A DNA stretch of 64,000 bases from [Eubacterium] hominis. GTDB taxonomy: Bacteria; Bacillota_I; Bacilli_A; Erysipelotrichales; Erysipelotrichaceae. A program made the translations under genes and the position numbers. Location of the stretch: contig CP060636.1 in assembly GCA_014337235.1 (NCBI GenBank), positions 1,327,385 through 1,391,384 of the forward strand, read 5' to 3'. The notes beneath the pieces are model-generated. The model saw nothing but the letters and a program-made list of their open reading frames with translations. It did not search any database and had not been told where the DNA came from. Positions 2,941-54,446 of the stretch are shown here, in pieces. How positions within the stretch are numbered: position 1 is the first letter of the stretch; each line of letters opens with the position of its first letter.

Positions 2941-3976
2941 ATCCTTTAAAAATATATTTCCTATGATATTGAAAAAATAAGACTCTATCTCTTGTCAGAT
3001 ATTCTTCTGGTAAACGATAATTTTTCTTCAAAGAAAACTTTTCCTGCCAATTTTCAATCTTTAACAATTCACCAGATAGAATAATATATCCATGATCATC
3101 AAAAGTAATATATCCCTGATCAAATAAATAATCATGATTACGACACAATAACAAACCATTATTATGATCGATTGCTTCATAAATATGAGCGCAGTCACGG
3201 AATGGCTTGATATGACTAGCGATTAACATATGAGGAATATTAATGGCACAAATGGGGCACGCATGATCAAATTCATGAAACAAAGTATCTTTATAGAATA
3301 CCTGTAAAGCTTTCGTTTCATCACGATCATGGGGAATCCCACGTCTTGGAATGATACTTAAAATCGCTTGTTTATATTTATAATCATTCATCTTTTCCAT
3401 TGTATTCTTATAATCAATTCGCATATCCTCATGAGCTACAATGGTTGACGTATACAGTGCAGTCAAAAAACATGATATTAAAGGAGAATCCTTTTGATAT
3501 TCATGCAGGATATCCCCAATGCCTTTAAGTAGTTTTGGGTGAAAACGCATCTTCTCTTGCTGAACTTCAAATAATGTAGTCTGTAACATATATTCCAGAC
3601 TTTCACGATCAATATACTCCAATACTTCACTTTTCAATAGAAAAGGATTATTACGTATTTGTGTGTTATAGAATTCATGTATTTCTTCGTTTAAGATAAA
3701 ACTTTCAAACATACTCAAAGCTTCAACACCAGAATTCTGATTGCTTTTCGCATAGATTGTCGCAGCAGGAGATAAATCAATGCCATTCTTATTCACTTTC
3801 AATAAATGCTTCGCTTTGAGAAAATCCATTAAATGTTTAATCTCGGAAAGCTTTAAATTATAATAATCATTTGCGATTTCTTCATACACACGAATGGCAG
3901 ACTGCTCAAAGGGAATCCCCTGCAATTCAATCGCATCAATCACAGACAGTATTTTTTTATATACCGACTTTCTCAT
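2939..3976 (-). CDS. HNH endonuclease family protein, 345 aa
   Basis: The C-terminal third holds an HNH nuclease: CPIC at residues 240-243, SHIKPF at 254-259, then NNGLLLCRNHDYLFD at about 272-286. These match the two-Cys zinc-knuckle type found in restriction-like HNH enzymes. The N-terminal 200 residues are helical and may recognise DNA. The start at 3976 is chosen because GTGGTGA precedes it at a normal distance; longer frames to 4063 have no ribosome site. A TATAAT lies at 3999-4004 on the minus strand. It is divergent from the AT-hook-like gene at 4104. Known relatives cut DNA; the target here is unknown. Confidence 0.85.
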   Translation of the reverse strand: MRKSVYKKILSVIDAIELQGIPFEQSAIRVYEEIANDYYNLKLSEIKHLMDFLKAKHLLKVNKNGIDLSPAATIYAKSNQNSGVEALSMFESFILNEEIHEFYNTQIRNNPFLLKSEVLEYIDRESLEYMLQTTLFEVQQEKMRFHPKLLKGIGDILHEYQKDSPLISCFLTALYTSTIVAHEDMRIDYKNTMEKMNDYKYKQAILSIIPRRGIPHDRDETKALQVFYKDTLFHEFDHACPICAINIPHMLIASHIKPFRDCAHIYEAIDHNNGLLLCRNHDYLFDQGYITFDDHGYIILSGELLKIENWQEKFSLKKNYRLPEEYLTRDRVLFFQYHRKYIFKG

Positions 3977-4103
3977 AAAATCACCACTTTCTAACTCTAT
4001 TATACATGAAAAATTTAATTTTTTTCGCTTTCCACCATAATATGCGTGTATTCGACAAAACAAAACATTTACAATGTAAGCAATTAAAAGGAGAGTGTTA
4101 AAT

Positions 4104-28115: not shown

Positions 28116-28227
28116 GAATAACGTCGCAGATTACGTGTGAAAAATGTAGAAAAACGTCGCAAAACTTGGATAAAAAATATAGAATAACGTCGCAAAAGTG
28201 TTATAATTTATATGGAAAAACGTCGCA
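28116..28227 (+). repeat. Four-unit direct repeat array, 33-bp period
   Basis: A 13-base core GAAWAACGTCGCA occurs at 28116, 28149, 28182 and 28215, each exactly 33 bases after the last. The only variable base alternates T, A, T, A, so units 1+2 and 3+4 look like a doubled 66-bp block. The 20-base spacers differ and are AT-rich. The extended -10 TGTTATAAT (28199-28207) lies in the third spacer, so units 3 and 4 flank the start of transcription of the ATPase gene. The layout is that of an operator array on one face of the helix. Confidence 0.85.
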
Positions 28228-28246
28228 GAGAAAGGATGTGATATAT

Positions 28247-29590
28247 ATGATGTATAGAAAATTTTATGAATATATGATGCAGTGGAAACAAGATAAGAAT
28301 AAAAAAGCATTATACATTAATGGAGCCAGGCAGATAGGGAAAACGACGTTAATACGTGAATTCGGTAAAAAAAATTATAAAAAGTTCTTAGAAATTAATT
28401 TTATAACTACACCTTCAGCTAAAACAATCTTTGAAGGAGATTTGTCTGCGGATTTGTTGATCACAAAACTCACAGCTTATTTTAAAACAGAATTGATACC
28501 CCATGATACATTGATTTTTTTCGACGAAATTCAGGAATGTATGGAAGTAAGAACAGCCATTAAATTTTTAGTGGAAGATCGAAGATTTGATTATATAGAA
28601 TCTGGATCATTATTGGGAGTAACCTATCAAAATGTTAAATCCTTACCAGTTGGTTATGAAGATCCGCATACGATGTATCCAATGGATTTTGAAGAATTTG
28701 CGATTGCAATGGGAATCCAACAAAGCACATTGAATATATTAAAGGAAGCATACATAAATAGGAAACCAGTGGATGATTTTATTCATAAAGAAATGATGAA
28801 ATTATTTAAATTTTACTGTGTTGTAGGGGGAATGCCAGCTGTTGTACAAGCATTTATTCAAACAAAAGATATGGGAAAAGTTATCAATGAACAGAAAGGT
28901 ATTTTAGAATTATACCGAAAAGATGTTCAAAAATACGCTGAAAAAGGGAAAGATAAAATACAAATGATATTTGATGCAATTCCCGCTGAATTGAATAATA
29001 AAAATAAACGATTCATCTTAAGTGATTTAAAAAAGAGCGCAAGAAGTGAGCGATATGAATCTTGCTTCAACTGGTTAAATGATGCTGGAGTAACACTGCC
29101 ATGTTATAACTTACAGGAATTAAAGCAACCAGTTGCGATAAATCTTTCTAGAAATTTATTTAAATTATTTTTAAATGATACAGGACTTCTATGTGCAATG
29201 TCCTCATCAAATATACAATATATGATTATATCTGATGATTTAGATGTCAATGAAGGCAGTATCATGGAAAATATGTTTGCGACTCAACTTGTAAGTAATG
29301 GTTATAAAATCTATTATTATGATAAGAAAAAATTTGGAGAGCTTGATTTTGTGATTGAATCAGAAAATAAATTACAGCCAATCGAAATTAAATCTGGGAA
29401 CAATTATAAAAAACATCCTGCACTAAATCATGTAATCGAAATGAAAGATGACCAGATGAAAAAGCCAATCGTATTTTGCATAGGGAATATCGAAGAAACA
29501 GAAGATTTGATATATATTCCTTTGTATATGGTTATGTTTTTGACAGAGCCTGTTTCTTTAGGCAAAATAGACTTCACGTTACATATTTAA
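28247..29590 (+). CDS. AAA ATPase with DUF4143 domain, 447 aa
   Basis: Walker A GARQIGKTT (residues 26-34), Walker B LIFFDEIQE (89-97) and an arginine-bearing AAA_14 core, followed by a DUF4143 tail with GELDFVIE and PIEIKSG (about 364-385), a PD-(D/E)XK-like nuclease fold. The start at ATG 28247 or 28250 follows AAAGGATG. The open frame extends upstream to TTG 28103 through the repeat array, but that extension has no ribosome site. Members are widespread in gut bacteria and archaea and have no settled function; ATP-driven DNA handling is likely. The promoter lies inside the repeat array. Confidence 0.9.
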   Translation: MMYRKFYEYMMQWKQDKNKKALYINGARQIGKTTLIREFGKKNYKKFLEINFITTPSAKTIFEGDLSADLLITKLTAYFKTELIPHDTLIFFDEIQECMEVRTAIKFLVEDRRFDYIESGSLLGVTYQNVKSLPVGYEDPHTMYPMDFEEFAIAMGIQQSTLNILKEAYINRKPVDDFIHKEMMKLFKFYCVVGGMPAVVQAFIQTKDMGKVINEQKGILELYRKDVQKYAEKGKDKIQMIFDAIPAELNNKNKRFILSDLKKSARSERYESCFNWLNDAGVTLPCYNLQELKQPVAINLSRNLFKLFLNDTGLLCAMSSSNIQYMIISDDLDVNEGSIMENMFATQLVSNGYKIYYYDKKKFGELDFVIESENKLQPIEIKSGNNYKKHPALNHVIEMKDDQMKKPIVFCIGNIEETEDLIYIPLYMVMFLTEPVSLGKIDFTLHI

Positions 29591-54273: not shown

Positions 54274-54381
54274 GACACGAAACCAAGCCTTTCATAACAC
54301 TGATTTGACACGAAACTCAATTTTATATATGGTTATTTATACACGAAACCGCGTTTTATATATAGCTATTTGGCACGAAAC
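54274..54381. repeat. Orphan four-unit repeat array, 33-bp period
   Basis: CACGAAAC occurs at 54276, 54309, 54342 and 54374 (steps of 33, 33 and 32). Units 1 and 3 continue with CC-type sequence, units 2 and 4 with CACGAAACTCAATTT, so two subtypes alternate. A TATATA sits 14 bases into units 2 and 3, the position at which the -10 occurs in the array at 28116. No gene follows on the plus strand; the stretch from 54188 to 54478 otherwise holds only the rarA terminator. Confidence 0.8.
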
Positions 54382-54446
54382 TCAATTTAATGGGCATATT
54401 TACCGTTTCATATAGCTAAAATGATGGTTATATAGAAATAAAAAAA

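Follow-up and report, generated by a model that had tools for sequence, protein, structure and literature searches.

A promoter array of 33-bp direct repeats with a gene-specific core in PDC-S01 candidate defence genes: a probable self-operator

Introduction

PDC-S01, an ATPase fused to a PD-(D/E)XK domain, was ranked in a 2026 survey as fourth in frequency among the defence systems of prokaryotes, with its protection against phage described as unvalidated in print; the available portion of the article mentions no array, operator, DNA target, trigger or control for the system (PMC12988326). Direct repeats at a defence promoter have been described for RptR, which, according to the accessible part of the report, binds three of them overlapping the -10 element and represses its own operon (PMC12255303). 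As described there, RptR is a small separate homodimer, and its target is one conserved site of 9-bp repeats with a 6-bp palindrome.

Evenly spaced repeats are also the binding sites of AAA+ or winged-helix proteins such as iteron-bound plasmid initiators, DnaA and archaeal Orc1/Cdc6, often beside their own gene. Iteron-bound initiators and controller proteins are analogies for a self-operator at PDC-S01 genes. Unlike the initiators, PDC-S01 genes occur in many genomes and phyla, often several per genome, and encode a nuclease-like domain.

Here we describe an array of direct repeats at the promoter of a PDC-S01 gene in a 64,000-nt stretch of the [Eubacterium] hominis genome (contig CP060636.1), hereafter the window, and its counterparts in homologous genes. 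An array with a private core at the promoter is what the present analysis adds to PDC-S01. The arrays resemble the RptR site in being direct repeats at a defence promoter and, by our reading, in serving self-repression; they differ in a period of 33 (or 23) bp, in a core private to each gene, and in that the likely binder is the effector itself. A self-operator of direct repeats is a known arrangement. Arrays with private cores across a cross-domain family of candidate immune ATPase-nucleases appear to be new as far as our literature search tells: within its scope, which left out preprints and most subscription journals, it gave no description of promoter arrays for DUF4143/PDC-S01 genes, in line with an earlier note on this DNA whose author knew of none.

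Results

A four-unit array at the window promoter

Four perfect copies of the 13-mer GAAWAACGTCGCA lie on the forward strand at window positions 28116–28227 in steps of exactly 33 bp, with W alternating as T, A, T, A. Copy 1 (GAATAACGTCGCA) occupies 28116–28128, copy 2 (GAAAAACGTCGCA) 28149–28161, copy 3 (GAATAACGTCGCA) 28182–28194, where it spans the -35 zone, and copy 4 (GAAAAACGTCGCA) 28215–28227. A putative extended -10 element, TGTTATAAT (28199–28207, forward strand, with TATAAT at 28202–28207), sits in the third spacer, 3' of copy 3. Copy 4 lies at or just past the predicted transcript start (about 28214) and 5' of AAGGA (28232–28236, forward strand), which resembles a ribosome-binding site. 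The arrangement is that given in the earlier note, with no mismatch in any copy, the -10 in the third spacer and copy 4 between promoter and ribosome site. A promoter scan listed no forward-strand promoter at the array, which indicates that there is no good -35.

The core is specific to this site. Its only mismatch-free occurrences in the window are these four; tolerating up to three mismatches raises the count to 41, for an expectation of 23.2 (sd 4.3; maximum of 100 shuffles 35). The 12-mer AAWAACGTCGCA occurs four times in the 3.88-Mb genome, each time at the window array; scatter of the core over the genome, named in the earlier note as a finding that would count against an operator, is therefore not seen. 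Paired AACGTCGCA at steps of 27–33 bp was found in one of 60 genomes searched, namely its own. A scan of 464 kb of this genome (the window and twenty 20-kb stretches; period 18–60, score at least 9) returned three three-copy arrays of exact period, two with period 33, both in the window, and one with period 48.

The downstream gene encodes a PDC-S01 protein

The gene behind the array (28247–29590, forward strand) encodes a 447-aa protein, its start being taken as the ATG at 28247 (MMYRKF), which agrees with the family. The protein matches Pfam PF13173 and PF13635 and, among the PADLOC PDC-S01 profiles, PDLC04792 over aa 1–435 of 447 with an E value of 5.9e-167. In profile match and in its ATPase plus PD-(D/E)XK architecture it agrees with PDC-S01 as described in the available part of the survey, and is thus a member of a widespread candidate phage-defence family.

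The AlphaFold2 model (pLDDT 93.3), from whose secondary structure the domain limits were taken, comprises an AAA_14 ATPase domain (aa 19–151), a lid, a winged helix (about aa 235–310) and a PD-(D/E)XK-like domain (about aa 336–430). Walker A (G26..GK32), Walker B (D93E94) and the nuclease-motif residues E365/D367/E380/K382 are present; across 103 aligned sequences G26, G31, K32, D93 and E94 are invariant, and E365, E380 and K382 are conserved in at least 90%. Structural alignment of the model ranked 2qen, 2fna, CED-4 and NLR chains at the top, with Orc1 also among the best fold matches; the Orc1/Cdc6 chains there are DNA-bound. The top matches we take to be STAND proteins, and an EfAvs5 match is titled SIR2-STAND. 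The matches to PABY2304 (2qen) and SSO1545 (2fna), both STAND-like archaeal ATPases, omit the C-terminal nuclease-like domain. In the model ATPase, lid and winged helix follow in STAND order, and both the PD-(D/E)XK fold and the (D/E)-xn-ExK residues are found. The protein is accordingly predicted to consist of a STAND ATPase, a winged helix and a PD-(D/E)XK-like nuclease. A sequence search for a solved homologue gave none up to E 10. The genome as a whole holds 21 DUF4143 matches, 20 of them above cut-off and several in short frames.

Arrays of 33-bp period precede most close homologues

The earlier note had proposed scanning about 200 bp upstream of related genes for direct repeats with a period of 30–36 bp and a core of their own, and expected most genes to have them. 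The homologue set comprised the best 80 genome loci among the matches listed, and 34 viral loci, from a family-profile search. Three of these 114 loci were excluded, L087 and L169 lacking the N-terminus and L085 having a run of N; several viral contigs are near-identical, and the 111 usable loci are not all independent. With a period of 31–35 and a T score of at least 20, a threshold picked while viewing the data, arrays were detected at 85 of the 111 loci against 2 of 428 non-family control upstreams from the same loci, the other 26 loci falling below the threshold. Moving the threshold from 18 to 24 gave 75–92 of 111 loci against 2–5 of 428 controls. The same upstreams searched at periods 15–30 and 36–61 reached a T score of 20 in 2 of 111 cases. 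A strict three-copy test was positive for 64/111 loci and 1/440 controls, the lone control being the upstream of a neighbouring family gene. Mean upstream autocorrelation peaked at 33 among the lags printed (0.397 vs 0.284). The arrays have a period of 32–34 bp, lie directly upstream of the gene and carry a core that differs from gene to gene; period 32 or 34 accounts for 13 of the 66 loci with a strict three-copy repeat. The array-bearing AAA_14/DUF4143 homologues span Bacillota, Bacteroidota, Fibrobacter, Treponema and one archaeal bin. A weaker excess of autocorrelation was also noticed at 11, 22, 44 and 55 bp, which would fit an 11-bp sub-period within the unit.

A sample not picked by likeness to the window protein gave a similar picture. 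It consisted of 40 stretches picked, among DUF4143 matches listed for ten genomes, by frame length (mostly about 420–485 aa) and room upstream; four had no hit, two had a short upstream, and six duplicate earlier loci (L258, L266, L272, L279, L282 and L289). The best period was 31–35 or 63–68 in 16 of its 21 subfamily genes (profile score at least 300), 14 of which reached a T score of at least 24, and in none of its 13 non-subfamily genes. Another 51 loci, 30 from among the listed matches and 21 from the window's own genome, some repeating loci of the homologue set, yielded 47 that could be scored. Arrays were present in 9 of 18 with a profile score of at least 250 (three of these N-terminally truncated), and in 1 of 29 below that score.

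The search was also run from array to gene. Paired GAAAAGTGTA at 30–35 bp occurred at 22 places in 8 of 10 genomes, eight of the ten having been chosen for holding such a gene or a similar one, and the reversed control pattern at none. These places make up 14 arrays, of which 11 lie directly 5' of a family gene (five of these genes previously unseen), one at a contig end and two elsewhere. Paired AACGGACAA gave 16 places in 8 of 26 genomes against 0 for its control, corresponding to 12 arrays: eight before a family gene (three of them new), one without a gene, one probably due to chance, one preceding the gene of a distant AAA ATPase (E 1.5e-6 by tblastn) and one before apparent relic codons (L360, below). 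The presence of an array thus predicts a family gene downstream. A ACGGACAAA array was noted at 1501–1613 of L363, 5' of a gene for a 399-aa distant AAA ATPase.

Apart from family members themselves (14/112) and the neighbours in five alike viral contigs, each neighbour family is confined to at most 3 of 112 loci, and no small repressor gene of the RptR type recurs beside the arrays there. No likely partner gene emerges from these loci.

Distant DUF4143 genes carry 23-bp arrays or none

The expectation that homologues carry arrays held for most of the close subfamily but did not extend to distant DUF4143 genes, some of which have arrays of 23 bp and many of which have none. At a period of 22–24 and a T score of at least 18, arrays were counted at 11 of 36 distant genes (profile score below 100) drawn from the 40-stretch and 51-locus samples, against 4 of 428 controls, having been spotted by eye before this comparison; the 33-bp set gave 1 of 111 under the same settings. 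Nine of the 11 genes encode proteins of 420–435 aa. Plain 23-bp units stand directly upstream of the start in L012, L251, L256, L257, L275, L277, L278 and L281, whose products measure about 425–435 aa. L012 best matches PDLC04790, as does L008, which is without an array; the PDLC04787 loci L021–L023 have none.

Placement of the arrays relative to promoters

Over 65 loci, the median distance from the end of the last core to the start codon is 42 nt (IQR 25–58). Of 25 hand-picked Bacteroidota-like loci, 24 contain the promoter motif TAnnTTTG. The copy nearest the start is found within the array in 7 loci, 3' of it in 14 and 5' of it in 3; in the first two groups, 21 of 24, it lies at most about 40 nt beyond the array. 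The entire array is downstream of the motif in L078, L079 and L080. Because the motif precedes all cores in 3 of the 24 loci, promoter occlusion would not be universal.

The core co-varies with the protein

Across 92 genes, likeness of cores correlated with protein identity (r 0.51; 0 of 1000 permutations), and shared 7-mers gave the same trend (r 0.28; 0 of 2000 permutations). The protein of L059, on a contig binned as Methanocorpusculum, is 58% identical to the window protein, and its array carries GAAAAACGTCGCA together with near forms. Ranked by core likeness to the window among the 91 other genes, L059 comes first, L060 third, L062 fourth and L061 tenth. In 164 pairs selected for alike cores, the cores are 79% identical, a figure inflated by the selection, and the far spacers 35%.

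Within one clade, seven genes with a CGGACAAA core and ten with other cores, assigned to these groups by eye, have disjoint residues at 2 of 447 columns, 218 and 265. Residue 265 is F, L or I in all seven and A or S in all ten, and the two columns remain the sole disjoint ones when the comparison is widened to 21 rows. Three more members of the clade, L064, L069 and L073, all with A265, had no clear array and were not included; by eye their upstreams contain GTGYA, ATGYR or GTACA-like pieces. In genes outside the comparison, residue 265 is I, L or M in three of three new CGGACAA genes and A or D in five of five new GTGTA genes, one or two of which belong to the same clade. In the window protein, A265 and R266 (codons at 29039–29044, forward strand) lie just N-terminal of a predicted helix, 267–279, which on the evidence of the model and the column comparison is likely the recognition helix. 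The residue-265 pattern entails three to four changes on the tree with one independent pair on well-supported branches, so that a sign test cannot reach significance, and residue 218, in the lid, separates the cores as well as 265 does. A family-wide column scan placed residues 362 and 364 of the nuclease-like domain at the top and R266 third; the winged helix, with 7 of the top 30 columns against 80 of 408 overall, is not clearly enriched. Both the winged helix and the nuclease-like domain may possibly contact the core.

Both cores searched exactly, those of the window and of L020, are private within their own genome. Allowing up to two mismatches, the L009 core was found at its own two copies and two other places (control 3). 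A wider regulon was considered and set aside: the window and L020 cores are confined to their own promoters in the genome of the window, and the one exception, elsewhere, is L255, with its array in front of an RM operon.

Flanking, duplicated and gene-less arrays

The second 33-bp array of the window is solitary. It consists of ACACGAAAC at 54275, 54308 and 54341 and CACGAAAC at 54374 (54275–54382, forward strand), has no ATPase gene nearby, and shows a core pattern found nowhere else in the genome. It adjoins the end of a gene that we take to be rarA-like, and is perhaps the relic of a lost unit. Gene-less arrays occur also at L358 and L360. In L360 a three-copy CGGACAAA array (1338–1450) is followed, by eye, by 13 initial codons of a family gene and a stop; tblastn of the region behind this array gave no match at E 1e-3, and array and codons are probably a relic. 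Arrays thus seem to outlast genes.

Other arrays are repeated around the gene. In L254 the ATPase gene stands between the two copies of a perfect 71-bp direct repeat (2407–2477 and 3937–4007), which comprises the gene's final 17 nt and two array cores; if the copies recombined, the gene would be deleted and one array left. Directly 3' of the L132 gene the array region recurs (82% over 96 columns), and L104 has a second array downstream. In L255 the array at 1799–1867 recurs at 3697–3766 (70 bp, 87%), about 0.45 kb 3' of the gene, where it precedes a GIY-YIG-like gene and type I RM (hsdR/hsdM-like) genes. This locus gave the only sign of an operator common to the ATPase and another defence system.

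Discussion

We consider it probable that the array is a private self-operator, at which the PDC-S01 protein binds to repress the promoter of its own gene. The homologue survey supports the earlier note's proposal of an operator array for the ATPase gene, and because the core co-varies with the protein, we infer that the binder is the ATPase itself. Repression rather than activation, cooperativity, an inducing signal and a defence role are likewise parts of the model that we infer. The winged helix of the STAND-type ATPase-nuclease would read the core, and several protomers would line up along roughly one face of the DNA, with each 33-bp unit (about three helical turns) occupied by a single protomer. 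Occupied sites over the -35/-10 and the transcription start would shut the gene's own promoter, and loss of protein from the array, by dilution or capture elsewhere, would raise expression of the ATPase gene. With a private core for each gene, the 21 DUF4143 matches of the window's own genome would not cross-regulate.

The flanking and gene-less arrays also allow for a role in gene turnover or in keeping an immune nuclease inactive. An array that is primarily a recombination or landing site, so that array-flanked units are gained and lost via the repeats and regulation is secondary, would account for the flanking repeat of L254, the second arrays of L132, L104 and L255, the arrays without a gene at window position 54275, L358 and L360, and homologues up to 59% identical in other phyla among the best 80 genome loci. 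We regard this as unlikely: 11 of 14 GTGTA arrays lie immediately 5' of a family gene; mobility need not yield a fixed promoter placement or a match between core and protein; core matches elsewhere within 86 loci are few (39 vs 29 in the control); and tandem duplication followed by deletion would leave flanking repeats too. A similarly low probability attaches to storage, in which the array would hold protomers inactive and separated, displacement would free them to assemble and cut, and gene regulation would be one consequence. The STAND-like fold, whose best matches include CED-4, NLR and Orc1, the PD-(D/E)XK-like fold and the PDC-S01 identity fit it, as do a spacing that, by gene group, comes near three helical turns (33 bp) or two (23 bp) and the strongest co-variation with the core at residues 362/364 of the nuclease-like domain, but the activity of the protein is itself a prediction. 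In a broader and equally speculative form, PDC-S01 would be a DNA-tethered immune nuclease whose private array both silences the gene and parks the protein inactive in a row, spaced by about whole helical turns (33 or 23 bp); phage attack or replication would strip the row, at once lifting repression of the gene and freeing the protein to assemble and cut, and arrays that outlived their genes would be traces of units turning over rapidly between bacteria and archaea.

The self-operator has a further competitor in a separate host regulator that binds the arrays, with the ATPase merely its target gene. There is a precedent in RptR, a small separate repressor whose binding site, according to the accessible text, is a set of three direct repeats in the promoter of an RM/DarTG2 island (PMC12255303), and the L255 array with the ATPase's core before GIY-YIG-like and type I RM genes would suit it. 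That the core shifts with the ATPase sequence even within one clade, that the window core recurs with a close homologue in an archaeal bin and that no regulator gene recurs beside the ATPase in 112 loci make this reading improbable, somewhat more so than storage or mobility. Because 33 is a multiple of 3, the repeats could also work at the RNA level or code for a peptide with an 11-residue repeat, and an open TTG frame does pass through the window array, while the arrays of L078, L079 and L080 lie 3' of the promoter motif. We think this very improbable: the period is 32 or 34 in a part of the strict three-copy loci, an in-frame stop cuts the L020 array off from its gene, the RNA fold of the window array is not unusual (z +0.9), and three of the four window copies lie upstream of the predicted transcript start. 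The TTG frame is probably not a gene start, since other arrays have a period of 32 or 34 or are out of frame.

A private-core array in most close PDC-S01 members offers a concrete candidate DNA ligand for binding and repression tests, and genes and arrays could be paired from sequence alone. The arrays suggest that each PDC-S01 system brings its own switch along and can do without a partner; this would help to explain the spread of a single gene across phyla and domains. The PDC-S01 identity, the 23-bp or absent arrays of distant genes and the gene-less arrays had not been foreseen in the earlier note.

Phage-borne decoys of the arrays were considered and are unsupported. Viral stretches with paired GAAAAGTGTA numbered 13 at a spacing of 30–35 bp and 2 at a control spacing of 36–41 bp; the 13 include no family gene in the DNA available, some of the stretches being short. 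The core AAAATCTGCA gave 16 occurrences against 14 in the control, its periods being for the most part multiples of 3, like those of coding repeats, and no family gene; window-like and CGGACAAA patterns were found in 10 and 4 viral stretches, respectively, none beside a family gene. In the viral loci L177, L183 and L184, two copies of GAAAAGTGTA at 32–33 bp stand upstream of phage genes, without a family gene.
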